A DNA stretch of 64,000 nucleotides, taken from contig JAPLJF010000033.1 of NCBI GenBank assembly GCA_026388715.1, positions 62,001 through 126,000 of the forward strand, in the 5' to 3' direction. The translations under genes and the position numbers were made by a program. Shown piece after piece: positions 4,478-27,078 of this stretch (within the stretch, counting starts at the first letter, position 1; each line of letters opens with the position of its first letter). The DNA is from Deltaproteobacteria bacterium. GTDB lineage: Bacteria; Desulfobacterota; Desulfobulbia; Desulfobulbales; Desulfocapsaceae. The notes beneath the pieces are model-generated. The model did not search any database. It saw only the letters and a program-made list of their open reading frames with translations, and was not told the origin of the DNA.

Positions 4478-7400
4478 ATGCAAGTGACGAGACGGCAGTT
4501 CTGTAAAATTTGCGCCGCCGGGCTGGGCGGTTCCAGCCTGGTTATGATGGGCTATTCGCCCGGCGAGGTCCTGGCCCAGACGAACAGCTTCAAACTGACA
4601 CGGGCCACCGAAACGCGCAGCACCTGTCCGTATTGCGCGGTGAGCTGCGGTCTTTTGATCTACAGTATGGGTGACAAGGCCAAAAACGCCAGATCAGAGA
4701 TCATCCATATCGAGGGCGACCCGGACAATCCGGTCAACCGCGGCACGCTCTGCCCGAAAGGAGCCGGCCTGCTCGATATGATCCAGAGCCCGGACCGGCT
4801 CAACTATCCGGAAGTGCGCGAACCCGGCTCCAATGCATGGAAACGTATTTCCTGGGACGAGGCATTCACCCGCATCGCCGGACACATGAAGGCCGACCGC
4901 GACACAAATTTCGTCACTGAAAACAGCGCCGGTCTGAAGGTCAACCGCTGGCCCACCTTCGGCTTCCTGGCCAGCTCCTCCTCGCTCAACGAGGTCGGCT
5001 ATATCTCGCACAAGGTGCTGCGCGGCTTAGGCGTTGTCACCATCGATACCCAGGCCCGCATCTGACACTCTCCCACGGTGGCCAGTTTGGCCCCCTCTTT
5101 TGGACGAGGCGCGATGACGAACCATTGGGTCGATATCAAGAACGCCGATCTGATTCTCATTATGGGCGGCAACGCCGCCGAAGCCCATCCCTGCGGCTTC
5201 AAGTGGGTCACCGAAGCAAAGGCGCACCGCAAGGCCAAACTGGTCGTGGTGGATCCCCGTTTCACCCGCTCGGCTGCTGTGGCCGATTATTATGCACCCC
5301 TCCGCTCAGGCACCGATATCGCCTTTCTGGGCGGGGTGATCAACTATCTCGTGACCCATGACAAGATCCTGCACGAATATGTAAAACCCTATACCAACGC
5401 GACCTATCTCGTTAATCCGAAGTTCTCGTTCGCGGACGGGATGTTTTCCGGCTATGACGCGGAGCACCGCCGATACGATACCGAAACCTGGTCGTATCAA
5501 CTGGACGCCGACGGCTATGCCAAAATTGATGAAACCATGCAGGATCCCAACTGCGTCTTTCAACTCATGAAGAAGCATTTCTCGCGCTACACCCCGGAGA
5601 TGGTGAGCCGGATCACCGGTACTCCCGAGAAACAGTTTCTGACGATCTGCGAAATGATCGCCACCACGGCGGTGCCCGACCGGACGATGACAAGTTTGTA
5701 TGCCCTGGGCTGGACCCAGCACTCGGTGGGTTCGGAGAACATCCGAAGTATGGCCATGATCCAGCTCCTGCTCGGCAATATCGGCGTGGCCGGCGGCGGC
5801 ATCAATGCCTTGCGCGGTCACTCCAATGTCCAGGGGATCACTGATATGTGCCTGTTCGGCGAAAAGCTGCCGGGCTACATGACCCTGCCCACCGAAAAGG
5901 ATCCAACCTACGGGGATTACGTTAAGAAGTGGACTCCGAAACCCCTGCGCCCCAACCAGGTGAATTACTGGAGCAATTATCCCAAGTTTTTTGTCAGCCT
6001 GATGAAGGCCTGGTATGGCAAGGCCGCGACCAAGGAAAACGATTTCGGGTTTGACTGGCTGCCCAAAATCGAAGGACCGTCCGATGCCCTGGCGATTTTT
6101 GAGCGCATGTACCAGGGGCAAATCACCGGTTTCTTCTGCCAGGGCTATAACCCCCTCGCCGCCGTGGCCAACAAGAAAAAGGTCGGTATAGCGCTTGCCA
6201 GGTTGAAATATCTGGTGGTAATCGACCCGCTCGCCACAGAAACCTCCGAGTTCTGGAAAAATCACGGCGTGCTGAACGATGTCGACCCCGCCGCGATTCA
6301 GACCGAGGTCTTTCGTCTGCCCTCGACCTTGTTTGCCGAGGAAGAAGGATCATATACCACCTCAAGCCGGGTCATCCAGTGGCATTGGAAGGCGGCTGAC
6401 GGACCTGGCGAGTCCAAGGGAGACGTAGAGATTGTCGCCGGCATCTTCATCAAGTTGCGGAAGATGTATGCCAAGGACGGCGGCGCCTACTCCGAGCCGG
6501 TCTTGCAGCTTTCCTGGCCGTACCACATTGCGGATCAGCCCTCGTCGGAAGAACTGGCGCGCGAGATCTCCGGGCGATCGCTGGTCGGCGACGGTGAGCA
6601 GTTGGCCGGGTTCGCTCAGTTGCGCGATGACGGCTCGACTACGTGCGGCAACTGGCTCTATAGCGGCATGTGGTCTCCGGCCGGAAACCTCGCCGCCCGG
6701 CGGGACAACAGCGACCCATCCGGTCTCGGCCAGACCCTCAACTGGGGTTTTGCCTGGCCTGCCAATCGCCGCATCCTCTACAACCGCGCCTCATGCGATC
6801 TTGCGGGCCGGCCCTGGGATTCTTCACGTCTGGTCATCGAATGGAACGGCAGCAAATGGGTCGGCAACGACATTCCCGACATGCGCCCCGATGCCAAACC
6901 CGAGGAGATGATCATGCCCTTTATCATGCAGCCGGAAGGCGTAGGCCGCCTGTTTGCACTAGGCCAAATGGCGGACGGCCCATTTCCGGAACACTATGAG
7001 CCGTTCGAATCGCCGCTTACCAAAAATCCGATGCACCCCGATAATCCGGAAACCAAAAGCAATCCGGCGGTGCGGATCTTTATGGGCGACCTCGACGCCT
7101 TCGGCAAGCCGGATAAATTCCCCTATGTGGGGACCACGTACCGGCTCACCGAACATTATCACTATTGGACCAAGCACTCCAAAATCAACGCCATTCTGCA
7201 ACCGGAGCAGTTCGTCGAGATCGGTGAAGAACTGGCCAGGGAGAAAGGCATCAAGTCCGGCAGCCAGGTGACGGTGAGCAGCAACCGGGGATTCATCAAG
7301 GCCGTGGCCGTGGTGACCAAGCGGATCAAGGCCCTTGATGTGGACGGCCGCAAGGTCCACACGATCGGCATCCCGATCCATTGGGGCTTCATGGGCCTGG

Positions 7401-7504
7401 CCAAGAACGGTTACCTGACCAACACCCTGACACCCTCTGTCGGTGATGCCACCACGCAGACCCCGGAGTTCAAGGCGTTTCTTGTCAACATAGAAAAGGC
7501 ATAA
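4478..7504 (+). CDS. fdnG: Formate dehydrogenase-N alpha subunit, selenocysteine protein
   Basis: This subunit oxidises formate to CO2 at a bis-MGD molybdenum or tungsten centre outside the cytoplasmic membrane. The ORF track splits it at TGA 5063-5065. Read as selenocysteine (residue 196), the frame continues [21 protein letters not shown], the classic Sec site of this family, giving 1008 residues against about 1015 in E. coli FdnG. The N-terminus [10 protein letters not shown] followed by a hydrophobic stretch is a twin-arginine signal. CPYCAVSCG plus a later CPKGAG ligate the [4Fe-4S] cluster. AGGAGAAA precedes the ATG. It is the first gene of fdnGHI-fdhE, 11 bases before fdnH. Sec insertion needs selABC elsewhere; Tat export needs TatC, whose gene here is frameshifted. 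Confidence 0.97.
5063..5104 (+). promoter_or_regulatory. UGA selenocysteine codon with bacterial SECIS-like hairpin
   Basis: TGA is followed by CACTCTCCC, as in other formate dehydrogenase Sec sites, and 17 bases later by a short hairpin GGCC-AGTTT-GGCC. The apical loop carries the G-U expected for SelB recognition, comparable with the AGTCT loop of E. coli fdnG as I recall it. The position relative to the UGA fits a bacterial SECIS. Confidence 0.85.
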
Positions 7505-13278: not shown

Positions 13279-14494
13279 TCATCTGACTAAAGCGTACTTC
13301 GTTTCATGAAGGGCGTAGATTTTCAGTTTGAAGAACTTCATATCTCGAAATCCATACGCCTGTTTCTGCAATGTTTTGATTTTGTTATTAGTTCCCTCCA
13401 AGGGGCCTGTTGATATAGGGTGATCGTAATAAGCTAAGATACCGGCACGATGGATTCATGGTATCTGCAAAACTATTGAGTATTTTAATGCCGGAACTTC
13501 CGGCTCGCAGGATCCAATCATCCAGAAAAGCAACAGCGGTGTTTTTATCCTTCTGTAACCAAAGCTGGCGCATGTCTTCCTTTCAATAATAGGCCGTGGA
13601 AGTGGTTTATTGAGTTGCAAAGCGGCTTCGAGACGCTGAGGTTCATTATTTTTTTCTTTGAGGTTTTGAAGGTTTTTCAGCAGCAGCCACAGGGTGTCCT
13701 TCAGGATTTATTGGTCAACCGTTTTAACCTTTCTCTGGAGATCTCGACGAAGATCACAAAGTTTGTCGTTAAACATTTTGACGATATGAAAGTGATCAAA
13801 GATAATGGCGGCCTTTGGAAGATGTGTTGAAACTGCTGAGATATACGATGGAGACATATCCATGGCAACCGCTTCTATCTTCGCTTTTACAATTTTGAGT
13901 CTTTTCCAAAAAGGAAGCAAGGCATCAACTCCTTTACCGTTGCCAACAAAAACAACGGCACCGGAAAGAAGATCGAGCACGACGGTAAGATAACGATGTC
14001 CGTGGCCGATTAATATTCCATCAATAGCAATGAGTTTAAGGTGTTTCAATCTCGGATGGGAATAGTGAGCCGAGAGATAAAATGTCTCCGCATATCTTTA
14101 ATAACATCCCAGCTGACACCAAGATGGATGGCAACAACGTCTTGAATGGTCATATGGCTTGCAAGCTCCAGAGCATAACGCTCGAACGATTTGGTGTATG
14201 TACGGCGGACATCGATTAATTCGATCTTAATTTTCCGGACAATCCCACAATACCTGCATTGAACACGAGGGATATGCAAAGCAATATATACCTGTTTGCT
14301 ACAGATCGGCAGAGTGTGAAACCAGCGCGCAGCACTTCACCACACCTACTGACATCCCAGGTATTGCAGCAGGGACAGCGCAGAGAAAACGGGTCTTTCT
14401 CAATTGAAAAAACAATTGCTCCTTGCTGAAAACGAGAACGTTTATACCGATAGCCTTGGATGCCAAAGCCATGATACAATATGTTTGAGGACAT
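13279..14494 (-). pseudogene. ISL3-family transposase, frameshifted
   Basis: Successive frames on the minus strand give the ordered parts of an ISL3 transposase. These are the N-terminus with LYHGFGIQGYRYKR and a CPCC zinc pair, a helix-turn-helix region (MTIQDVVAIHLGVSWDVIKDM), the DDE core (LKLIAIDGILIGHGHRYLTV, then VAMDMSPSYISAV and IIFDHFHIVKMFNDKL), and the C-terminus LEGTNNKIKTLQKQAYGF running to KYALVR and a stop. At least three frame changes are needed to join them. The usual glutamate after AID is replaced by glycine. The protein is therefore inactive. Track ORFs at 14216, 14046, 13708 and 13388 are its pieces. Confidence 0.9.
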
Positions 14495-14587: not shown

Positions 14588-14788
14588 ATATTTTTTGGGT
14601 GACACACGGGCTCTGCGTTTGTTATTCTTTGCGTTCATAAAAAGGTGATCTCCTTTTTACTTAATTCCGTCGTTAACCTTTTGATGATATGACCTTTTTA
14701 ATATCATTTTGTCGCTTGTTTGTAATATTCAGGTATCACTTCTCACCCTATCAAAAACTTGAAAACTTCACACAGACTGTCTTGCAAT

Positions 14789-16855
14789 ATGAAGCATACC
14801 CCTGAAGAACCGATTCGCCGCAGGATACTGATACCTTTGTCCCTGACCTTTGCGGTTCTTTTCTGCACCTTTATCTACAGCGCTTATCAAATCCGCGCCG
14901 ACCAGAACCTGATCGATATGCGCCACAACTATGAGGTCACCCAGGCCTACATCGATGTGTCCAAGGACCAGCGGGAGACGTTGCTGCTCAATCTTATGAT
15001 CGAGATCTCGCACGACCCTCAACTGCGCAAGGCGATGATGGCCAACGACCGTGACGCCCTTTACCAGCAATCCCTGCCGCTGTTCAATCAGTTCTTCCAT
15101 GACCACGGAATCTCTCACTTTTACTACCATACGACGGCTGCTACGACCTTGCTCCGGGTCCACAACCCCGATGAATTCGGCGACAAAGTGGCCCGCAGCA
15201 CCTTTTTACAGGCGGCCCACAGCCAGAAATTTGCCTTTGGCCTGGAACTCGGCAAATTCGGCATGCTGACCTATCGGGGCGTTTTGCCGTGGCAGGTGGG
15301 AGATAAGTTGATCGGCTATATCGAGCTGGGGATCGAAGTCGATTACGTCCTCAAACAACTGCAGTCGATTGTCAAGAAAGACTTCCTTGTCACCCTTGAT
15401 AAACAGCAGCTTGATCGTGAACAGTGGGAACTTGCCCGGGAGCACACCGGCCGCTCGCACAACTGGGATTTATTCAGCGACCAGGTGATTGCCTACCAAA
15501 CCCTGCCTGATTCCAGCAAACTGAACAAAATCAAGCTTCTATCCGTGAAGAGCCTTGCTGCCGAAGAAGCATACAGCGACATTGTCATCGACAAGCAGAT
15601 CTATCGCATCAAGGGCTTTCCTCTGTTCGACTTTTCAGACCAGTTGATTGGCGGCTTCTATGTGTTGCACAACATCACGCAGCAGACAACCTCCTTCAAG
15701 GCGTTCATCGTACCGATTATTCTGGCGAGTGCCAGCCTCTGTCTGGTGCTGTTTTTCTTCGCCTATACTGTGCTGGGCAGAATGGACCGGCAATTGGCGG
15801 AGACCCGGAAACGCCTCAACGATGAAGTCGCTAACGTCACGCTGGCCAACCGGCAACTGGAAGAGGAGATCGGCCACCGGCGCCTGGCTGAATCGGAACT
15901 GCAGCTTCTCAACCAGACACTGGAAGAGCGGGTGGCGCAGCGCACGGTGGCGCTGGAAGAGATGAATCGGGAACTGCAGGAAACACATGCCACTATTTTG
16001 CATCAGGACAAGATGGCCTGTATCGGTCAGCTTGCCGCCGGCATCGCCCATGATATCAACAATCCGATCGGCTTTGTCAGTCATAATCTGGACACCTTTG
16101 AGCGTTACCTGGAGCGTCTGAGCCAATTCTTCACCCTGCAGATAGGAGTGATCGAACGCCGCGGCGATAACGAGCTGGCTGCCGCCTGCATGAAAGGGCG
16201 ACGGGATTTCGGCATCGATGAGATACTGCGCGAGATGCCGGTCATGCTGGCGGAATGCCGCGACGGCACCACCCGCATCAGCCAGACCGTACAGGGTCTG
16301 CGCAACTTTTCGTGCAAGGAGATCCCGCGGCGCGAATTCACCGATCTGCATCAATGTATCGACAGTACCCTTGCGCTCATTCGTCACGAGCTGCACGCCA
16401 AGATCGAAGTCGTGCGCGATTACGGGAACATTCCCCGGTGTTACTGCTGCGCCGCGCAGATGAACCAGGTGTTCCTCAATCTGTTCATCAACGCCACCCA
16501 GGCCATTGCCGGGCAGGGGAAAATCCATATTCAGAGCTGGGCCGAAGACAAAAAGATTTGGATTACCATCAGCGATAACGGCTGCGGCATCCCTCCTGAC
16601 CAGCTCGAACACATCTTCGAACCCTTTTTCACCACCAAAGAGGTCGGTGTCGGCACCGGTCTCGGCCTGAGTATTGTCTACGACATTGTCACCCGGCATA
16701 AGGGCATCATCGAGGCTGTCAGCAAGCCCGGCACGGGAACCACCTTCACCCTGTGCCTGCCCATTGATCTGAGAACAAAACCACGCGACCCGAATGCAGC
16801 GGCCCCGTTCTCAGCAAACCTGATCCGGACCGAGAAAGGAGATCACCGTGGCTGA
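14789..16855 (+). CDS. Membrane sensor histidine kinase with dCache-type sensor domain
   Basis: The product has 688 residues from ATG 14789; the track uses a TTG 30 bases earlier. Order: cytoplasmic N-tail, membrane helix about 15-37, and a periplasmic sensor of about 260 residues with [22 protein letters not shown], the pattern of the two-lobed dCache_3 sensor. A second helix follows near 305-330, then a coiled coil. The phospho-acceptor region is [18 protein letters not shown] (His near 420) and the ATPase has N-box [20 protein letters not shown] and [13 protein letters not shown]. Its ligand is unknown. It overlaps the regulator gene by eight bases, so the pair is co-translated. The decayed insertion sequence ends 200 bases upstream, so its promoter lies within that gap. 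Confidence 0.92.
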
Positions 16856-18206
16856 GAAACAAACCCGCCTTCTCTATGTGGATGACGAAGTGGCCTACCG
16901 CAATATTTTTTGTCGGGAAATGGGGGAGGATCAACGGTTTTCGATTGAAACCGCTGCGGATGGCCCGACCGCCCTGCGCATGCTTGAAACCAAGCGCGCC
17001 GACATCGTCCTCACCGATCTGAGCATGCCCGGCATGGATGGCATCGACCTGCTGCAGGAAATCCACCGGCGCTATCCCGAGATTTTCGTCTTGATTCTCA
17101 CCGGTGTCAATTCGGCCCATGAAGCGGTCCGGGCGATGAAGGCGGGCGCCTACGACTATATCCTCAAGCCGTTTGATATCACCACGCTGCAGATGCAGCT
17201 GGAAAAAATCCTCCAGCATCGCCATCTGCTCGACAATAACAAAGAAGGGCAAAGCGAGGCCCATTTTGAACAGCTGATCGGCCAGGACCCCGCCATGTAC
17301 GAACTGTTCGAGGGGATCAGGCGCATCGGCCCGACCAACATCACCGTCCTGATTCGCGGTGAAAGCGGCACCGGCAAGGAACTGATCGCCGCCGCCATTC
17401 ACGTCCGCAGTGCCCGCCGCAACCAGAAATTTGTCCCGGTCAACTGCGCCGCCCTCACCGAGGGCCTCATTAACAGCGCCCTGTTCGGCCATGAAAAAGG
17501 CGCCTTCACCGGCGCGGGAGCCCGCAAAATCGGCTTTTTCGAGCTCGCCCAGGGCGGCACCATCTTTCTCGACGAAATCGGCGAGATCCCCCTACAGACC
17601 CAGGTCGCCCTGCTGCGGGTGCTCGAGTTGGGTACCTTTCACCGGGTCGGCGGCACTGAAACCATCCAGGTCGATACCCGCATCATCTGTGCCACCAACA
17701 AAGACCTGGCGGCCGCCATGCGTGAAAAAACCTTCCGCGAGGATCTCTTCTATCGGCTCAATGTCGTCACCCTCAACGCGCCGCCCCTACGCGAGCGACA
17801 ATCCGACATCCCCCTGCTCGTCAACTTTTTTCTGCGCAAGTTCAACCGCGAAAGCGGCAAGCTGATCAGCTCCGTCGACCAGGCCACCATGAACCGGCTC
17901 TGTGCCTACCGCTGGCCGGGCAACGTGCGCGAGCTGTCCAATGCCATCGAACGGGCCGTGGCCTTCTGCCCCGGCAGCGAACTGCGTCTCGAACATTTCC
18001 CCGACGAACTGCAGCACGCTGTTGTTGCGGAGAAAGACTTCTCCCTTAAACTGAGCTCCAGCTCCCTGCCTGAAATCGAAGCCGAAGTGATCCGTAAAGT
18101 CCTTGAAGAAAAACACTGGAATCTGTCGCAGGCCGCCGACGCACTCGGCATTGCCCGGGGCACCCTGTACAGTAAGATCAAACATTACGGCATTGAAAAA
18201 AGCTGA
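16848..18206 (+). CDS. NtrC-family sigma-54-dependent response regulator
   Basis: The protein has 452 residues from a GTG. A receiver domain (1-120) carries the phospho-acceptor Asp in VLTDLSMPGMDG near 56 and the Lys of LKPFD. An AAA+ domain has Walker A GESGTGKE near 172, the sigma-54 contact loop GAFTGA near 218 and Walker B IFLDEIGEI. A C-terminal Fis-type helix-turn-helix (LSQAADALGIARGTLYSKIKHYGI) follows. It should bind palindromic sites and drive sigma-54 promoters once phosphorylated by the overlapping kinase gene. The next gene downstream has such a promoter with three palindromes, which makes the cytochrome genes the obvious targets. The last codons of this gene are duplicated at about 20025-20057. 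Confidence 0.94.
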   Translation: MAEKQTRLLYVDDEVAYRNIFCREMGEDQRFSIETAADGPTALRMLETKRADIVLTDLSMPGMDGIDLLQEIHRRYPEIFVLILTGVNSAHEAVRAMKAGAYDYILKPFDITTLQMQLEKILQHRHLLDNNKEGQSEAHFEQLIGQDPAMYELFEGIRRIGPTNITVLIRGESGTGKELIAAAIHVRSARRNQKFVPVNCAALTEGLINSALFGHEKGAFTGAGARKIGFFELAQGGTIFLDEIGEIPLQTQVALLRVLELGTFHRVGGTETIQVDTRIICATNKDLAAAMREKTFREDLFYRLNVVTLNAPPLRERQSDIPLLVNFFLRKFNRESGKLISSVDQATMNRLCAYRWPGNVRELSNAIERAVAFCPGSELRLEHFPDELQHAVVAEKDFSLKLSSSSLPEIEAEVIRKVLEEKHWNLSQAADALGIARGTLYSKIKHYGIEKS

Positions 18207-18254: not shown

Positions 18255-18366
18255 TGTTGAAAATTGAAACAGCTGTCGAAATTTGAACAACTTCTTTTTT
18301 CACAAATAATACCTAAAAACAACATGTTGGGCTGGTTTCGATGTCCTTGCTGTTGATAATTGAACA
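18255..18366 (+). promoter_or_regulatory. Three palindromic activator sites, cytochrome copy 1
   Basis: TGTTGAAAATTGAAACA (18255), TGTCGAAATTTGAACA (18274) and TGTTGATAATTGAACA (18351) share the palindromic pattern TGTyGAwAwTTgAACA. The first two are about one and a half to two helical turns apart; the third is about 77 bases further on and about 85 bases before the sigma-54 promoter. This spacing is what one expects of enhancer-like sites for an NtrC-type activator. Confidence 0.75.
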
Positions 18367-18450
18367 GTAGCGGTGCGGACTGAAGCCGGCATGGTTCCAG
18401 CCGTAACTCCATAACATCATGATACTGAACGATAAATAGTTTTTTGCAGA

Positions 18451-18467
18451 TTGGCATCAAAATTGCT
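18451..18467 (+). promoter_or_regulatory. Sigma-54 (-24/-12) promoter, cytochrome copy 1
   Basis: TTGGCATCAAAATTGCT matches the sigma-54 consensus YTGGCACRnnnnTTGCW with one clear mismatch. The invariant GG and GC are separated by exactly ten bases. The promoter is about 105 bases upstream of the cytochrome ATG. The same 17 bases occur at 20371. Confidence 0.88.
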
Positions 18468-18572
18468 TTTAAGGACCCAGAAATGAGAAACGCGCCCCTT
18501 AGGAGGTGTATGTCTCGAAAACGGTTGTTGGACCGCTCTTGACGGAACAGCAAAGGATTTTTAAGGACGGCG

Positions 18573-19931
18573 ATGGCGGCGACAACCTACAAGGTTATCG
18601 CCTATAACGACCTTGGCATGCATTGCGCTTGTCCCACCTCTTCAAGTTTTTTGCTTCTGCCGCCGTTCAATACCATTCGCGCCCAGGTGCTCCAGCTCGG
18701 CACCAATGATCCGATCCTGCCGACCACCGGCCTTACCGTTTCTTACCAGATGGTCGAAAATACCGATGCTGGTTTGATTGCGGATGCGTACTTCTCTACC
18801 TGGATTTCCTATGCACCGAAGATTTTTCCCGGTTACCAGCCGCTGGTCGGTGGCAAGGTCATGGGTCTGACCGGTAATGGCCTGTCCGGTACCATGAAGT
18901 ATGATGCCCTTTCGAAGTCCTGGATTGCCACCGGTATTCCGGCCTTCCCGCCGGTGACCGGCACTTCCACCGACGTGATGACCGATCCGCTGGGTGGGCC
19001 AAACCGGACGCCGTATCTGACCGCCAATGTCACGGTCAAGAATACTGCGGGCACTACCCTTGCCACCACTTCCACCGTGGTTCCCGTCGCCTTTGGCGGC
19101 TGCTGCAGTTGCCATCTGGACGTGGCGGTGGCCAATGGTTTCCCGAGAACCCCGGATGGCTCTTTCCAGGCCATGGGTAAACTGCATGGGCAGAATTCTT
19201 CCAAGATCAATCTTGCCCTTCTTGATCCGGATGGAGACGGCGTAGGCGGTCCGATCCGTTGTTCGGAGTGCCATCTTGATCCGGCCATGGGTGAAACGGT
19301 TGCTCCGGGATTTGCAGCGACCCATCCGAACTATACGATTCTGCCGGGCGCCACCTTTACCAAGGCTGACGTGAAGACTTCCACCTTGACCTTTTCCCAG
19401 GTTCTCCATAACTTCCACAGTGGCAATGCCAAGGTGCTTGCCATGAAACCCGATATCGATACCAACTGCTATGCCTGTCATCCAGGCAACGGCATTGAGT
19501 GCTATCGCGGTTCCATGAAGACCGATGGTTTCACCTGTGTCAGCTGCCACGGCACCCTGTCAGTGAGGGCTTCTTCCGGACAGACGGCACAGCCATGGAA
19601 CGCCGCCACCCTGCCGAGTTGTAATAAACCGGCCATGGGCGTCACGGGTAGCTGCCATTCTTCCGTCTCGTATCCTGACGGTGGTGGTTGGGCCTCGAGC
19701 TTTGAGGGTAAGTACATCAATAACCGGGGCCACAAGGGCAGCATCCTGTGCACCACCTGTCACGGGGCGCCGCATGCCGATGCCCCGGCCACGACTGCCA
19801 AGGATAACGTGCAGAACCTGGCCCTGCAGGGCTCAGCCAGAGCGCTGGGCAAGTGTTCGGTTTGTCATCCCCATAAGTCTACCTCTTGGGGTACGCCGAA
19901 TCACACCAGTGGCAATACCGTTATTAAGTAA
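18573..19931 (+). CDS. Hexahaem c-type cytochrome, tandem copy 1
   Basis: The protein has 452 residues with six CxxCH haem motifs: CCSCH, CSECH, CYACH, CVSCH, CTTCH and CSVCH, all in the C-terminal two thirds. A further cysteine ten residues before a CH (SCNKPAMGVTGSCH) might be an unusual seventh site. The N-terminal domain begins YKVIAYNDLGMHCACP, an NDLGMHC segment I associate with multihaem cytochromes of Desulfobacterota and Geobacter-like bacteria. Likely role: extracytoplasmic electron transfer. Odd: no signal peptide is encoded. The frame is closed by TGA 11 codons before the ATG in copy 1, and AAGGA precedes the ATG, so this start looks real. Transcription is probably from the sigma-54 promoter at 18451, under the adjacent regulator. 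Confidence 0.9.
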   Translation: MAATTYKVIAYNDLGMHCACPTSSSFLLLPPFNTIRAQVLQLGTNDPILPTTGLTVSYQMVENTDAGLIADAYFSTWISYAPKIFPGYQPLVGGKVMGLTGNGLSGTMKYDALSKSWIATGIPAFPPVTGTSTDVMTDPLGGPNRTPYLTANVTVKNTAGTTLATTSTVVPVAFGGCCSCHLDVAVANGFPRTPDGSFQAMGKLHGQNSSKINLALLDPDGDGVGGPIRCSECHLDPAMGETVAPGFAATHPNYTILPGATFTKADVKTSTLTFSQVLHNFHSGNAKVLAMKPDIDTNCYACHPGNGIECYRGSMKTDGFTCVSCHGTLSVRASSGQTAQPWNAATLPSCNKPAMGVTGSCHSSVSYPDGGGWASSFEGKYINNRGHKGSILCTTCHGAPHADAPATTAKDNVQNLALQGSARALGKCSVCHPHKSTSWGTPNHTSGNTVIK

Positions 19932-19970
19932 CAAGGCACTTCACAACGCCCTTGTTGTGGCGTGAAATAA

Positions 19971-20008
19971 AAAGGGCACCTTATCCGCTGGATAAGGTGC
20001 CCTTTTTT
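19971..20008 (+). terminator. Strong terminator after cytochrome copy 1
   Basis: AAAGGGCACCTTATCC and GGATAAGGTGCCCTTT form a perfect 16-bp stem with a GCTG loop followed by six T. A second, weaker inverted repeat (ACAAGG/CCTTGT) lies between the stop codon and this stem. Confidence 0.95.
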
Positions 20009-20105
20009 GTTGCTCGGCGTCAGGCAGATCAAACATTACGGTATTAAGAAAAGCTGAGTCGTAACCGTGGGCAGCTCCACCTTTTCTTGACTTGCCGAAC
20101 TGCCC

Positions 20106-20286
20106 TGTTGAAAATTGAACAGTCGCCGGACGCGGCCCAATTCTGCCATATCCCCCTCTTCTCACGATCAGCCGCTGTTGTTCAGGAACTGTCGAAATTT
20201 GAACAATTTCTTTTTTTCTAATAAATAACGTCGAAAAAACAATATGTTGAGCTGGTTTCGAGGTCCTTGCTGTTGATAATTGAACA
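20106..20286 (+). promoter_or_regulatory. Three palindromic activator sites, cytochrome copy 2
   Basis: TGTTGAAAATTGAACA (20106), TGTCGAAATTTGAACA (20190) and TGTTGATAATTGAACA (20271) repeat the sites of copy 1. The first is a more perfect palindrome than its counterpart at 18255, and about 60 bases of unrelated sequence separate it from the second. Conservation of all three against a changed background supports them as binding sites. Confidence 0.75.
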
Positions 20287-20370
20287 GTGGCGGTGCGGAC
20301 TGGAACCGGTATGATTCCAGTCGTAACTCCATAACATCATGAAACTGAACGATAAATAGTTTTTTGCAGA

Positions 20371-20387
20371 TTGGCATCAAAATTGCT
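20371..20387 (+). promoter_or_regulatory. Sigma-54 (-24/-12) promoter, cytochrome copy 2
   Basis: TTGGCATCAAAATTGCT is identical to the element at 18451, with the same flanks (TTTTTGCAGA before and TTTAAGGACC after). It lies 98 bases upstream of the ATG at 20486. Confidence 0.88.
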
Positions 20388-20485
20388 TTTAAGGACCCAG
20401 AAATGAGAAACGCGCCCCTTAGGAGGTGTATGTCTCGAAAACGGTTGTTGGACCGCTCTTGACGGAACAGCAAAGGATTTTTAAG

Positions 20486-21844
20486 ATGGCGGCGACAACC
20501 TACAAGGTTATCGCCTATAACGATCTGGGCATGCATTGCGCTTGTCCCACCTCTTCAAATTTTTTACTTCTGCCGCCATTCAATACCATTCGCGCTCAGG
20601 TGCTCCAGCTCGGCACCAATGATCCGATCCTGCCGACCAGCGGCATTACCGTTTCCTACCAGATGGTCGAAGATACCGATGCTGGTTTGATTGCGGATGC
20701 GTACTTCTCTACCTGGATTTCCTATGCACCGAAGATTTTTCCCGGTTACCAGCCGCTGGTCGGTGGCAAGGTCATGGGTCTGACCGGCAATGGCCTGTCC
20801 GGTACCATGACGTATGATGCCACTTCGAAGTCCTGGATTGCCACCGGTATTCCCGCCTTCCCGCCGGTGACCGGCACCGCCACCGACGTGATGACCGATC
20901 CGCTGGGTGGCCCCAACCGGACGCCGTATCTGACCGCCAATGTCACGGTTAAGAACACCGCGGGCACTACCCTTGCCACCACTTCCACCGTGGTTCCCGT
21001 CGCCTTTGGCGGCTGCTGCAGTTGCCATCTGGACGTGGCGGTGGCCAATGGTTTCCCGAGGACCCCGGATGGCTCTTTCAAGGCCATGGGCAAACTGCAT
21101 GGGCAAAATTCTTCTAAGATCGACATTTCTCTGCTTGATCCGGATGGAGACGGTGTTGGCGGCCCGATCCGTTGTTCGGAGTGCCATCTTGATCCGGCCA
21201 TGGGTGAAACGGTGGCTCCGGGATTTGCCAATGTGCATCCGAACTTCAAGATTCTGCCGGGCGCCACCTTTACCAAGGCTGACGTGAAGGTTTCCACCTT
21301 GACCTTTTCCCAGGTTCTCCATAACTTCCACAGTGGCAATGCCAAGGTCCTTGCCATGGACCCCAATATCGACACCAATTGTTATGCCTGTCATCCAGGC
21401 AACGGCATTGAGTGCTATCGTGGTTCCATGAAGACCGATGGTTTCAACTGTGTCAGCTGCCACGGCACCCTGTCAGTGAGAGCTTCTTCCGGACAGACGG
21501 CACAACCATGGAACGCTGCCACCCTGCCGAGCTGTAATAATCCGGCCATGGGCGTTACGGGTAGCTGCCATTCTTCCACCTCGTATCCTGACGGTGGTGG
21601 TTGGGCCTCGAGCTTTGAGGGTAAGTACATCAATAACCGGGGCCACAAGGGCAGCATTCTGTGCACCACCTGTCACGGTTCGCCACATGCCGATGCCCCG
21701 GCCACGACTGCCAAGGATAACTCGCAGAACCTGGCCATGCAGGGCTCAGCCAAAGCCTTGGGCAAGTGCTCGGTTTGTCATCCTACCAAGTCTACAAGCT
21801 GGGGTGTGCCAAATCACACCGCTGGTAATAGCGTTCTTCCTTAA
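20486..21844 (+). CDS. Hexahaem c-type cytochrome, tandem copy 2
   Basis: The protein has 452 residues from ATG 20486, exactly the length of copy 1 and differing from it at scattered positions only. All six CxxCH motifs are kept, as are the NDLGMHCAC segment and the SCNNPAMGVTGSCH element. The track starts it 20 codons earlier at a GTG, but that extension (VYVSKTVVGPLLTEQQ) is the untranslated leader of copy 1 read in frame because seven bases are absent here. It is neither hydrophobic nor signal-like. AAAGGA sits at a suitable distance from 20486. As in copy 1, no export signal is seen. The gene has its own sigma-54 promoter and terminator, so the two copies are separately transcribed. Confidence 0.9.
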   Translation: MAATTYKVIAYNDLGMHCACPTSSNFLLLPPFNTIRAQVLQLGTNDPILPTSGITVSYQMVEDTDAGLIADAYFSTWISYAPKIFPGYQPLVGGKVMGLTGNGLSGTMTYDATSKSWIATGIPAFPPVTGTATDVMTDPLGGPNRTPYLTANVTVKNTAGTTLATTSTVVPVAFGGCCSCHLDVAVANGFPRTPDGSFKAMGKLHGQNSSKIDISLLDPDGDGVGGPIRCSECHLDPAMGETVAPGFANVHPNFKILPGATFTKADVKVSTLTFSQVLHNFHSGNAKVLAMDPNIDTNCYACHPGNGIECYRGSMKTDGFNCVSCHGTLSVRASSGQTAQPWNAATLPSCNNPAMGVTGSCHSSTSYPDGGGWASSFEGKYINNRGHKGSILCTTCHGSPHADAPATTAKDNSQNLAMQGSAKALGKCSVCHPTKSTSWGVPNHTAGNSVLP

Positions 21845-22420: not shown

Positions 22421-24625
22421 TCAATCTTTCTTGTCTGCCTCCTGCTGTTTTTTGAGACGTTTCAATGTCTCTGGATCAAGATGGGGCGGTTGCCCCGGGC
22501 CACGCGCAGGTGGCGGCGCGATCTGGGGTCGTGGTGGCGCTGGTGGTGGCACATTCTGTGGCCTTACAGGCGCAGGTGGCGGCGCCGGCCTGACAGCCTC
22601 CCTGTCCATGGCTGGCCGTCCCCTGAACTGACCGGGCATAACATTTTGTTCAGGAGCCTGGGGCCGCCCGCGAAAACCGGGGGCATTCCTCTCTTCATTC
22701 TGGGCCGGTGGTCGCGGAGCAGGAGGAGGTGGCGGCGCGATCTGTGGCCTTGATGGTGGAGGTGGCGACGCTGACCTGACAGCCTCCCTGTCAATCGTTG
22801 GCCTGCCCCTGAATTGTTCGGGCATAACGTTATGCTCGGGAGCCTGGGACCGCCCGCGAAAACCGGGAGCATTCCTCTCTTCATTCTGAGCAGGTGGTTG
22901 CGGAGCAGGCGCAGGTGGCGGCGCGATCTGTGGTCTTCCAGTTTCAGGTGGCCTTGCCGCCTTGATGGCATCGGTATCTATTGTCGGCCTGCCCCTGAAT
23001 TGGCCGGGCATAACATTATACTCGGGATTCTGGGACCGCCCGCGAAAACCGGGGGCATTCCTTTCATCACTCTGGGCCGGTGGACGCGGGACAGTAACAG
23101 GTGGCGTCGCGTTCTGTGGCCTTCCGGTGGCAGGCGGCATTGCCGACTTCATAGCATCGGCATCAATAGGTTGCCGGCCCCTGTACTGGCTGGGCATAAC
23201 GCTATGCTCCAATATCTGTTTCCGCTCATCAGGCCCTGGCGTCATCCTGACAGCAGGCGCTAATGGTCGCGGTGTCGCCGTTGGCGCGAAAACCGAACGA
23301 TCACGCTCTCTGACCATAGGCCTTGCTCCCTCTGCTGCCCTTCCCGGCAATGACCGAATATTGGCAGGCGGCAGATTTATCCTGGGGATATTCTTGATGA
23401 TCGGCATCTTGGTAATCCGGCCCGGCTCAATTCTGGGTCGGCCAATACTTATCCGTTCCCGCAAAAAAGGATTTTCCCGATGTCCGACATCATGATGCCG
23501 TCCTGTCAGGAAGGTATCCCGATTGACAACGGTAACGGCGTTATGCACATGGGCATTCCGGTAATTGCTGCCAGGTATCTCTGCATAGATATTGGCATTA
23601 ACAATATTGACACTATGGGGTCCATAATTGCCGTAACCGTAATAAACTTCGGCAGGCGCCAGGGGCACCCAGGCGACATCGTTTTCGGTTGCAACCCAAC
23701 TGACATAGCCGGGCCCCCAATAGACCTCATTGCGCGGCGGTGGAACCCAGCACCAGCCATAAGAAGAGATGTACGACCAGCGCCCGTAATGATAAGGGGC
23801 CCATCCCCACGGTTCACTCGCGATCCAGACATAATCGTCACCAATCCACACCCATCGGCCCTCACGATAAGGGGCCCAGTCAGCATCGATATGCGTGGTC
23901 GGGGTCCAGACATTTCCATATTCAGTGGTCTCAATCCATCGGCCATTCCTGTTCAGATCCCGTCCATATTCTGACAGTTCCTGCGGAAGATATTGATCGC
24001 TACCCACATCTTCGGTCAGGGATTCGTCCCAATCCCTGTTCCATTTTTCCCAATCGCTGGGCGGCTCCAAGGCCATCAGTGAGGGCATGCCCTCATCTAA
24101 GGAGAGCATCTTGCCCGCGCCGACCCTGACCTCACCGTTTCTGTTTTCCGCGTACACGGCACCCCGGTACACGGAAATATCGGTATTGCCATTTTGGACA
24201 AGGGCAACATTGAAGGTCGAGCTGTCATACACCCTGAGTGAAGAAATCGGGGTATCCATCTGGAGCATGGCATCATCCATCTTCCTGAAGTTCAAATATG
24301 CCTGCCCCTGACTGAGGTACATCTGCAGAGAATCCTTCTCTACCGCCAGAATCTCAAGAGAGCTGTCCGCATCAATCCTGATGACACTTCCTTCCCGTGT
24401 CTCTATCTGGGCCCACGCATTGTTTGGCACCCAAAACCGGTCTCCCGCCTGAATAGGAAGATTGATGGCCGCCGGGAACCATTCGGTCGCCCCCTTGGAT
24501 TGAATCTGGACATCACCCTCCAACTGACTCAGACGCAAGTACCCAAGGTCCTCAGCGTGAGCCCAGAGTGGGAAAAGAATCACAATCCAGAGCATCATTA
24601 TTTTCAACAGATAATTTCTTTTCAT
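22421..24625 (-). CDS. Secreted FecR-domain/DUF6600 proline-rich repeat protein, copy A
   Basis: The protein has 734 residues. It starts with a signal peptide (MKRNYLLKIMMLWIVILFPL..AHA), then a FecR-like domain (about 28-165: LEGDVQIQSKGATEWFPA to VRVGAGKML). A tryptophan-rich DUF6600 region follows (about 230-330) with repeats such as YREGRWVWIGDDYVWIASE and YGRWSYISSYGWCWVPPP. From about 450 there is a disordered proline-rich tail made of four to five units of about 50 residues, each containing RNAPGFRGR, NVMPxQFRGRPxID and PPP runs. FecR domains usually sense or scaffold at the periplasmic face; here it is a soluble or envelope protein of unknown role. AAGGGTGA precedes the ATG. It is a tandem paralogue of the gene at 25024-26928. 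Confidence 0.85.
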   Translation of the reverse strand: MKRNYLLKIMMLWIVILFPLWAHAEDLGYLRLSQLEGDVQIQSKGATEWFPAAINLPIQAGDRFWVPNNAWAQIETREGSVIRIDADSSLEILAVEKDSLQMYLSQGQAYLNFRKMDDAMLQMDTPISSLRVYDSSTFNVALVQNGNTDISVYRGAVYAENRNGEVRVGAGKMLSLDEGMPSLMALEPPSDWEKWNRDWDESLTEDVGSDQYLPQELSEYGRDLNRNGRWIETTEYGNVWTPTTHIDADWAPYREGRWVWIGDDYVWIASEPWGWAPYHYGRWSYISSYGWCWVPPPRNEVYWGPGYVSWVATENDVAWVPLAPAEVYYGYGNYGPHSVNIVNANIYAEIPGSNYRNAHVHNAVTVVNRDTFLTGRHHDVGHRENPFLRERISIGRPRIEPGRITKMPIIKNIPRINLPPANIRSLPGRAAEGARPMVRERDRSVFAPTATPRPLAPAVRMTPGPDERKQILEHSVMPSQYRGRQPIDADAMKSAMPPATGRPQNATPPVTVPRPPAQSDERNAPGFRGRSQNPEYNVMPGQFRGRPTIDTDAIKAARPPETGRPQIAPPPAPAPQPPAQNEERNAPGFRGRSQAPEHNVMPEQFRGRPTIDREAVRSASPPPPSRPQIAPPPPPAPRPPAQNEERNAPGFRGRPQAPEQNVMPGQFRGRPAMDREAVRPAPPPAPVRPQNVPPPAPPRPQIAPPPARGPGQPPHLDPETLKRLKKQQEADKKD

Positions 24626-24959
24626 CGAATCACCCTTTATACTTTTCTGAACTACAGGAACTATTATTTCTTTAGACTAAGGAGCTTCAAGGCAAGCCCG
24701 GCCGCCTGCTGCGAGGCGCCGGGTTGTCCAAGACAAGCAAGGTATCAGATTAGCCCTGATCTTTTTCCGAAATCATGTCAAATTATTAAGAGCTTGTCCG
24801 TAAATAAATCTTTGGTGCTCGCATCCGGCTTTTGGCCGTCTTTGACCGCTCCTCAATCGCAAAATCCTCGCCGTAGCGCTGCTACGGCTGCGGTTTTACT
24901 CAATCGTCTCGGCCAAATTCGTCTTAAGTCTGATCAACTACACCTAACAATCTTAAAAT
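24626..24959. other. Spacer between FecR copies with an lpxB 3' remnant
   Basis: There is no gene in this spacer. At 24685-24740 (minus strand) a stretch reads [18 protein letters not shown], nearly the same as the end of lpxB (27115-27170, [18 protein letters not shown]). It is a remnant carried by the tandem duplication. The rest contains an inverted repeat around CCGTAGC-GCT-GCTACGG (about 24871). Confidence 0.75.
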
Positions 24960-25000
24960 GGGTGCAACCCACTATCTTCAGGGAAATTTGGGTCGCACCC
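24960..25000 (-). terminator. Terminator of the second FecR-domain gene
   Basis: GGGTGCAACCCA and TGGGTCGCACCC pair across 17 bases. It is the counterpart of 22344-22391 but with a weaker T run (TTTTAAG) on the minus strand. Confidence 0.75.
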
Positions 25001-25023
25001 TCCCGCATTCTGTCACCATCGTC

Positions 25024-26928
25024 CTATTGTTTTTCTTTCTTGTCACCACCCTGCTGCTTTTTTTTGAGACGTTTCAATGCCTCTGGGTCAGGTTTGGCCG
25101 GTTGTCCCGGAGCTGGCGCAACACGGGGTCTTGCTGGCGCGGGAGCTGGTGCGACACGGTGTCGTGCTGGTGCATGAGCTGGTGCGACACGGGGCCTTGC
25201 TGGCGCAGGAGCTGGCGCTGACTTGACAGCCTCCCTGTCAATAGCTTGCCTACCCCTGAATTGTCTGGGCGTAACGTTCTGTCCCGGCAACTGCGGCCGC
25301 TCGCGAACAACTGGGCCATTTGTTTCATCTTTCCGAACCGGACGTCCATGAGCAGCAGGAGCAGGTGGCGGCGCACCATGTGGTTTTATAGAGGCTGGAG
25401 GCGGTGCAAACTTGACAGCTTCTCTGTCAATGGCTTGCCTACCCCTGAATTGTCTGGGCGTAACGTTCTGTCCCGGCAACTGTTTCCGCCCACCAATCCC
25501 TGGCACATTCTGTTCCTTACCCTGTTTTACAGCGGCGTCAGGATTCATCCTGATTGTGGGTGTCAAAGTTCGTGGTGCAACAGTTGGCGTAAAAGAAGAA
25601 CGATTACGCTCTCTGACCATAGGCCTTTCCGCTGTCCGTCCCGGCAATGACCGAATATTAGCAGGCGGCAGATTTACCTTGGGGATTTCCCTGATAGTCG
25701 GCATTTTGGTAATCCGCCCAGGCTCAATCCTGGGTCGGCCTACATTGATCTTTTCCCGCAAAAAAGGATTTTCTCGGTGTCCCACAACCGCATGGCGCTT
25801 GCCTGTCAAGAAGGTGTCCCGAGGAATAACTGTTACTGCGTCACGCACATGAGCATTTCTGTAATTGCTTCCAGGCACCACTACTGTAGCGATATTAACA
25901 TTAACAATATTGACACTATGGGGTCCATAATTGCCATAACCGTAATAAACTTCGGCAGGCGCCAGAGGCACCCAGGCGACATCGTTTTCGGTTGCAACCC
26001 AACTGACATAGCCAGGCCCCCAATAGACCTCATTGCGCGGCGGTGGAACCCAGCACCAGCCATGAGAAGAGATGTGCGCCCAGCGTCCGTAATGATAAGG
26101 GGCCCAGCCCCACGGTTCACTCGCGATCCAGACATAATCGTCACCAATCCAAACCCATCGGCCCTCACGATAAGGAGCCCATTCATCAGAAATATGCGTA
26201 GTCGGGGTCCAGACATTTCCGTACTCACTCGTCTCAATCCACTTGCCATTCTTGTTCAGATCCCTTTCATACCCTGTCAATTCCTGTGGAAGATATTTCT
26301 CGGAATCCCCATCTACAGCCAGAGATTCATCCCAATCCCTGTTCCACTTTTCCCATTCACTTGGGGGCCCCAAGTCCATAATTGAAGGTAAACCTTCATC
26401 CATAGAGAGCATCTTTCCGGCATCGACGCTGACCTCACCACTCTTGTTTTCCGCATTCACGGTGCCCCGAAACACGGAGAGGTCGGTATTGCCATTTTCA
26501 GCAAGGGCCACATTGAAGGTCGAACTGTCATATATTCTGATCGAAGAAATCGGGGTATCCATCTGGAGCATGGCATCATCCACTTTCTTGAAGTTCAGAT
26601 ATGCCTGCCCCTGACTGAGGTACATCTGCAGAGAGTCCTTCTCCATTGTCTGGATCTCAAGTGAACTTTCCTCGTCAATCCTGATGACACTACCTTCGCG
26701 CGTCTCCACCTGGGCCCACGCATTTTTTGGCACCCACAACCGGTCTCCCGTCTGAATAGGAAGATTGATGGTGGCCGGGAACCATTCGGTCGCCCCCTTA
26801 GATTGAATCTGGACATCACCTTCCAGCTGGCTCAGACGCAAGTACCCAAGGTCCTCAGCGTGTGCCCAAAGTGGTAAAAGAGTCACAATCCAGAGCACTA
26901 TTGTTTTCAACAGATAGTTTCTTTTCAT
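25024..26928 (-). CDS. Secreted FecR-domain/DUF6600 proline-rich repeat protein, copy B
   Basis: The protein has 634 residues from the ATG at 26928 (track start 26985 ignored; AAGGGTGA precedes this ATG exactly as in copy A). It has the same order as copy A: signal peptide, FecR domain, DUF6600 tryptophan repeats (YREGRWVWIGDDYVWIASE), then a proline/alanine-rich tail. The first two thirds are closely similar to copy A. The tail differs: only two QNVTPRQFRGRQAIDREAV units, then short PAPARPRVAPA-type repeats and a lysine-rich end. It lies downstream of lpxB on the same strand and about 150 bases from it. It is probably the original copy, since lpxB is intact here and only a fragment precedes copy A. 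Confidence 0.85.
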   Translation of the reverse strand: MKRNYLLKTIVLWIVTLLPLWAHAEDLGYLRLSQLEGDVQIQSKGATEWFPATINLPIQTGDRLWVPKNAWAQVETREGSVIRIDEESSLEIQTMEKDSLQMYLSQGQAYLNFKKVDDAMLQMDTPISSIRIYDSSTFNVALAENGNTDLSVFRGTVNAENKSGEVSVDAGKMLSMDEGLPSIMDLGPPSEWEKWNRDWDESLAVDGDSEKYLPQELTGYERDLNKNGKWIETSEYGNVWTPTTHISDEWAPYREGRWVWIGDDYVWIASEPWGWAPYHYGRWAHISSHGWCWVPPPRNEVYWGPGYVSWVATENDVAWVPLAPAEVYYGYGNYGPHSVNIVNVNIATVVVPGSNYRNAHVRDAVTVIPRDTFLTGKRHAVVGHRENPFLREKINVGRPRIEPGRITKMPTIREIPKVNLPPANIRSLPGRTAERPMVRERNRSSFTPTVAPRTLTPTIRMNPDAAVKQGKEQNVPGIGGRKQLPGQNVTPRQFRGRQAIDREAVKFAPPPASIKPHGAPPPAPAAHGRPVRKDETNGPVVRERPQLPGQNVTPRQFRGRQAIDREAVKSAPAPAPARPRVAPAHAPARHRVAPAPAPARPRVAPAPGQPAKPDPEALKRLKKKQQGGDKKEKQ

Positions 26929-27078
26929 CGAATCACCCTTTATACTTTTCTGAACTACAGAAATCATTATTTCTTCTGATTCCAAGTTTCCTTCAAGCCA
27001 ATACCTTCGTCGGCTACACTGCGCGGCTCCTCACCGTACTACCCGTACTGCTTCGTCACCGCTCGCTTGCCTTCGGTC

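Follow-up and report, generated by a model that had tools for sequence, protein, structure and literature searches.

The window analysed here, a stretch of 64,000 nt, forms part of a 152.7-kb contig (C17) of a host assembly comprising 2.97 Mb in 36 contigs. Downstream of a sensor kinase and an NtrC-type response regulator, it carries two tandem genes for multihaem cytochromes, which we call copies 1 and 2. A search of public genome contigs matched only records of two relatives, the draft MAGs G004 (uncultured Desulfobulbaceae Kiruna2_bin-2539, CAITDH010000282.1) and G008, the nearest named genomes being MAGs of uncultured Desulfobulbaceae. The features of the locus are given below in window coordinates, each followed by its basis.

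14759-16855, plus strand: sensor histidine kinase (dCache_3 and HATPase_c), upstream partner of the regulator; Pfam, intact ORF
16848-18206, plus strand: NtrC-type response regulator (receiver, Sigma54_activat and Fis HTH); Pfam, synteny
18255-18366, plus strand: three enhancer-like palindromes of copy 1 (18255-18270, 18274-18289, 18351-18366), consensus TGTTGANAATTGAACA; motif search
18424-18610, plus strand: tract free of substitutions relative to copy 2 (promoter, UTR, junction and first codons; one 7-bp indel); alignment
18451-18467, plus strand: sigma-54 (-24/-12) promoter of copy 1, TTGGCATCAAAATTGCT; motif search, conservation across G004 and G008
18562-18567, plus strand: TAAGGA, Shine-Dalgarno-like, arising across the junction, 5 nt ahead of the copy 1 ATG; sequence, function predicted
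18564-18565, plus strand: junction of the leader deletion in copy 1, which lacks 85 bp compared with G008 (84 compared with G004); alignment
18573-19931, plus strand: copy 1, leaderless multihaem cytochrome, 452 aa; ORF, Pfam, motif counts
19972-20011 (approximate), plus strand: hairpin with T-run, probable terminator of copy 1; sequence
20106-20286, plus strand: three enhancer-like palindromes of copy 2 (20106-20121, 20190-20205, 20271-20286); motif search
20371-20387, plus strand: sigma-54 promoter of copy 2, TTGGCATCAAAATTGCT; motif search
20473-20477, plus strand: AAGGA, Shine-Dalgarno-like, 8 nt ahead of the copy 2 ATG; sequence, function predicted
20484-20485, plus strand: junction of the leader deletion in copy 2, which lacks 92 bp compared with G008 (copy 1 lacks 7 fewer); alignment
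20486-21844, plus strand: copy 2, leaderless multihaem cytochrome, 452 aa; 93% identity to copy 1

Elsewhere in the window, an in-frame TGA divides a formate dehydrogenase-like gene (4478-7504), which is what a selenocysteine codon would produce, and an ISL3-family transposase fragment (13708-14049, minus strand; Pfam) lies upstream of the sensor kinase. On the minus strand, 22421-26985 holds a tandem pair of paralogues that combine FecR and DUF6600 domains (Pfam) with long repeat tails rich in Pro and Arg.

In their bodies, copies 1 and 2 conform to the NDLGMHC family, in which an NDLGMHC domain at the N-terminus precedes several CXXCH motifs; the signal peptide found in the Sec-exported members of this family is deleted in both. 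Each protein contains six CXXCH motifs and one CX10CH motif (C350-H362), and these columns are invariant or nearly so in an alignment of 36 members. The CX10CH site (CNKPAMGVTGSCH) is located at 19620-19658, corresponding to residues 350-362 of copy 1, with the same site in copy 2; it represents an expanded haem-binding motif at a position where the family consensus is CXXCH, and it is kept in all five close copies. Cytochrome c7 (PF14522) exceeds its Pfam cut-off in the window proteins, and a hit of about 1e-4 links the NDLGMHC family profile to MtrC. The MtrC/OmcA-type decahaem family PF22113 reached 25 bits against a cut-off of 30 bits in the Pfam search. An AlphaFold2 model of fair quality (pLDDT 80, pTM 0.84) was compared with the PDB by Foldseek, which returned only p53-like beta-sandwich matches and no meaningful fold match; this resemblance, at query TM-scores near 0.15, was disregarded. 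Given the sub-threshold PF22113 score and the lack of a meaningful Foldseek match, the proteins were not assigned to the MtrC/OmcA-type outer-membrane decahaem cytochromes. In the literature that could be searched, neither the NDLGMHC family nor multihaem cytochromes without a leader were the subject of any paper.

The preliminary description had presented both genes as encoding multihaem cytochromes without an export signal, and their coordinates, their common N-terminus MAATTYKVIAYNDLGMHC and the absence of a leader from the upstream frames were all confirmed. By hydropathy and inspection by eye, no hydrophobic export leader was detected upstream of either copy in any frame. Two details of that description also hold: the frame of copy 1 is closed by an in-frame TGA at 18540-18542, 11 codons 5' of the ATG, and copy 2 is distinguished from copy 1 by a 7-base indel immediately 5' of the ATG. 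The copy 2 frame opens into 20 further codons giving VYVSKTVVGPLLTEQQRIFK, where the best 12-residue hydropathy of 1.31 indicates no signal peptide. In G004, the DNA orthologous to the window upstream region is an untranslated leader that ends with a stop codon immediately ahead of the true start, which is why the window frames 5' of the two genes are considered non-coding.

The preliminary description had also proposed a comparison of N-termini across the family. By a simple hydropathy test on relatives up to phylum level, a hydrophobic leader (best 12-residue value 1.8 or higher) was present in 41 of 44 NDLGMHC-family N-termini, the three exceptions being copy 1, copy 2 and a fragment of the G008 gene on contig C53, which appears to be split by a mobile element. 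The host genome of copies 1 and 2 also harbours a third copy (G000:C19:42568-43914), whose body is about 92% identical to those of the window copies and whose leader is kept (MKKKLIFIGGAVLQLSLVGLIAGTAMA). Unusual export, one of the options raised earlier, thus finds no support, as close relatives including this copy 3 use an ordinary Sec-type leader.

Base-level alignment of four loci, namely copies 1 and 2, G004 and G008, reveals where the leader went. The G004 orthologue, from the same genus and locus, reads MKKKLALIGGAVSLAGLITGTAMA|ATTYKVIAYNDLGMHC, with a mature part starting ATTYKV, and the regulator contig of G008 (C109) bears the same leader. The window DNA follows these relatives through the promoter to the end of the UTR (GATTTTTAA) and then jumps, in copy 1 to GGACGGCGATGGCGGCGACAAC and in copy 2 to GATGGCGGCGACAAC. 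The missing DNA comprises the Shine-Dalgarno sequence (GGAGG), the start ATG and all of the signal peptide except its last codons. The ATG now present is the methionine of the former TAMA cleavage motif, which means that the ORFs encode almost exactly the mature protein, and translation of both copies would start there. Among the options considered before, loss of the signal is thereby placed to the base, while a start located elsewhere is rejected, since the leader DNA is absent rather than misread; a frameshifted or misannotated start was rejected for the same reason, the upstream frames being untranslated leader in G004.

Upstream of the deletion, the regulatory sequences are preserved. The NtrC-type regulator is syntenic in G004, G008 and a further genome, G009, with 91-93% DNA identity, and is the probable activator of the cytochrome promoters. 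The enhancer-like palindromes are also present in G004, and a genome-wide search allowing at most one mismatch gave three hits, all at this locus. Two matches to the sigma-54 promoter motif were found in the window against 0.09 expected by chance, and copy 3 has a sigma-54-type site as well. To judge by these motifs, the regulatory circuit looks intact, its visible targets in the host genome being the two leaderless genes. In G009, the same kinase/regulator locus (L041, L046; G009:C77) precedes a distinct multihaem cytochrome that has a leader, indicating that the gene at the regulator locus has been exchanged.

The 5' UTRs have features of their own. At 18500-18542 and 20420-20462, they contain a strong Shine-Dalgarno sequence (TTAGGAGGTGT) and a 10-codon ORF (MSRKRLLDRS); in copy 1, the cytochrome lies in the same frame beyond the TGA of this ORF. 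An Rfam scan of the 5' UTR gave no family at its gathering score, and no source of the new 31-nt UTR block that surrounds the short ORF (GAAACGCGCCCCTTAGG...) was found elsewhere in the host genome, G004, G008 or G009. The G004 5' UTR (L008:2910-3110, minus strand) includes a module that occurs twice in tandem, is very approximately 75 nt long (GAAAAYGGTWGTTGGAYCGC...AGCAAARGATT...) and has a Shine-Dalgarno-like site behind each copy.

Copies 1 and 2 diverge by about 7% elsewhere, yet 188 positions spanning promoter, UTR, junction and first codons show no substitution; when an equal number of substitutions was placed at random, such a run occurred in 2 of 20,000 trials. Constraint explains this tract poorly, because conservation of the UTR between species is not strong, and the pattern suggests that the junction was probably copied recently between the tandem repeats by gene conversion. 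The leader deletion may therefore postdate the duplication. The earlier suggestion that a signal was lost before the duplication stands as regards the loss but not the timing, which is not established, as the tract fits later copying at least equally well.

Downstream of the junction, the bodies are free of stops and retain every haem motif, with a dN/dS of 0.27 between copies 1 and 2; on these substitutions, they are under purifying selection overall. Copy-specific changes (synonymous/non-synonymous) amount to 10/7 in copy 1, 21/9 in copy 2, 15/18 in copy 3, 17/19 in G004 and 27/4 in G008, so that copies 1 and 2 are no looser than the leadered copy 3 or G004. No decay of the bodies after leader loss is visible at this dN/dS, perhaps because the loss is too recent to show; nor is the value proof of function after the loss, since most of the divergence may predate it.

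In G008, the orthologue is split a few codons past the leader: read in gene direction, C109 enters TTCCATTTCTAAATC..., and C53 begins in sequence ending ...GATTTAGAAATGGAA, beyond which the gene sequence picks up again at a repeated TTA (L045:1-160 on C109 and L007:1-141 on C53). The ends TTCCATTTCTAAATC / GATTTAGAAATGGAA are inverted and also occur at other G008 contig ends. C109 and C53 are separate in the assembly, and a multicopy mobile element with a TTA target repeat would account for this interruption.

Taken together, we think it likely that copies 1 and 2 are genes recently inactivated through deletion of their leaders, with products that would be cytoplasmic and haem-free. This interpretation builds on the deletion seen against the relatives, the leaders in these relatives and in copy 3, the 188-bp tract, and the intact promoter sequences and regulator ORF; from them we infer the translation start, the cytoplasmic location, the lack of haem, the loss of function, and gene conversion in preference to a duplication after the deletion. 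In Gram-negative bacteria, c-type cytochromes are exported by Sec and mature outside the cytoplasm (PMC3601427), so a leaderless product should stay in the cytoplasm without haem; System II maturation genes (ResB/CcsA) are present in the host genome. The ancestor would have been a Sec-exported multihaem c-type cytochrome, induced through a sigma-54 promoter by its dedicated histidine kinase/NtrC-type regulator pair. A deletion of about 85 bp may then have taken the Shine-Dalgarno sequence, the start codon and nearly the whole signal peptide, and the same junction would have reached both tandem copies, probably by gene conversion after the duplication, with copy 2 later losing 7 bp more (or copy 1 regaining none). 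Translation could restart at the old TAMA-motif ATG and yield a near-mature polypeptide in the cytoplasm, which should miss CcsBA (System II) at the outer face of the inner membrane and remain haem-free and non-functional. Copy 3 on contig C19, with its own sigma-54-type promoter and leader, is the likely working version. As for a gene silenced by leader loss, intact relatives hold the missing part, namely G004, G008 and copy 3, and loss of function is favoured by the independent hit to the same gene in G008, where a mobile element, by its apparent insertion, follows directly after the leader. Against it stand the undecayed bodies, the intact sigma-54 promoters and enhancer-like sites, and the Shine-Dalgarno-like sequences that precede both new ATGs; recent loss accounts for all this, but retained function would do so too.

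The latter possibility, that selection keeps the leaderless genes for a cytoplasmic mature-form polypeptide, for example one binding haem, iron or zinc, with the new front end spread to both copies, appears unlikely. It would fit the preserved promoters and regulator with enhancer-like sites at this locus only, the Shine-Dalgarno-like sites at both new starts of ORFs that begin near-exactly at the mature N-terminus, the lack of relaxed constraint and the presence of the junction in both copies. But the junction looks young, so that intact bodies are expected even without function; no uninterrupted leaderless version was seen in the other genomes examined, and G008 displays an ordinary inactivation of the same gene. 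Slightly more doubtful still is the more specific proposal that the two-component sigma-54 circuit drives trimmed cytochromes with a new, selected cytoplasmic function, either haem- or metal-bound.

Of similarly low probability, ranking between these two, is an assembly artefact in which the leader is real in the organism and was dropped while the repeated locus was assembled. The 36-contig draft, the tandem repeat with its 188-bp near-identical tract and the position of the corresponding G008 gene at contig ends would all be in keeping with such an error. However, the two separate junctions differ by 7 bp and so do not represent one collapsed path duplicated, the flanks are distinct with C17 spanning both copies, and the window 5' UTR departs from the relatives in further ways. 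Finally, leaderless export by a non-classical route, or reversal at the population level by recombination with the leadered copy 3, is very improbable: copy 3, with its similar body, could donate a leader, but its 5' flanks differ, no second junction form occurs in the assembly, the relatives have ordinary leaders, and we know of no non-classical export route for c-type cytochromes.

Recent inactivation by leader deletion thus remains our preferred reading, and with it an annotation puzzle, a multihaem cytochrome without an export signal, has been resolved to a base-level deletion by comparison of orthologous loci. It also calls for caution, as CXXCH motifs alone are insufficient to count such genes as working electron-transfer proteins. 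If the leaderless proteins were functional, they would be unusual among multihaem c-type cytochromes in having been retained as cytoplasmic proteins.

A precedent for cytoplasmic haem c in special cases is provided by thermophilic c-type cytochromes, in which haem c forms uncatalysed in the E. coli cytoplasm (PMC3601427); this concerns expression in E. coli and does not cover multihaem proteins like copies 1 and 2. The MtrC/OmcA-type decahaem and cytochrome c7 domains (PF22113, PF14522) are alike in the sequence of the haem domain, but the window proteins have just six to seven haem sites, a different N-terminal domain and no fold match at a meaningful TM-score. Much closer is copy 3, which shares the 92% identical body, all haem motifs and a sigma-54-type promoter with the window copies, but differs in its signal peptide and short linker, in its 5' flank and in having no palindromes of the window type at its locus (at most three mismatches). 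The G004 locus matches the window in its order of NtrC-type regulator, sigma-54 promoter, untranslated leader and cytochrome, with 90% protein identity, and differs in carrying one gene copy with its signal peptide present.
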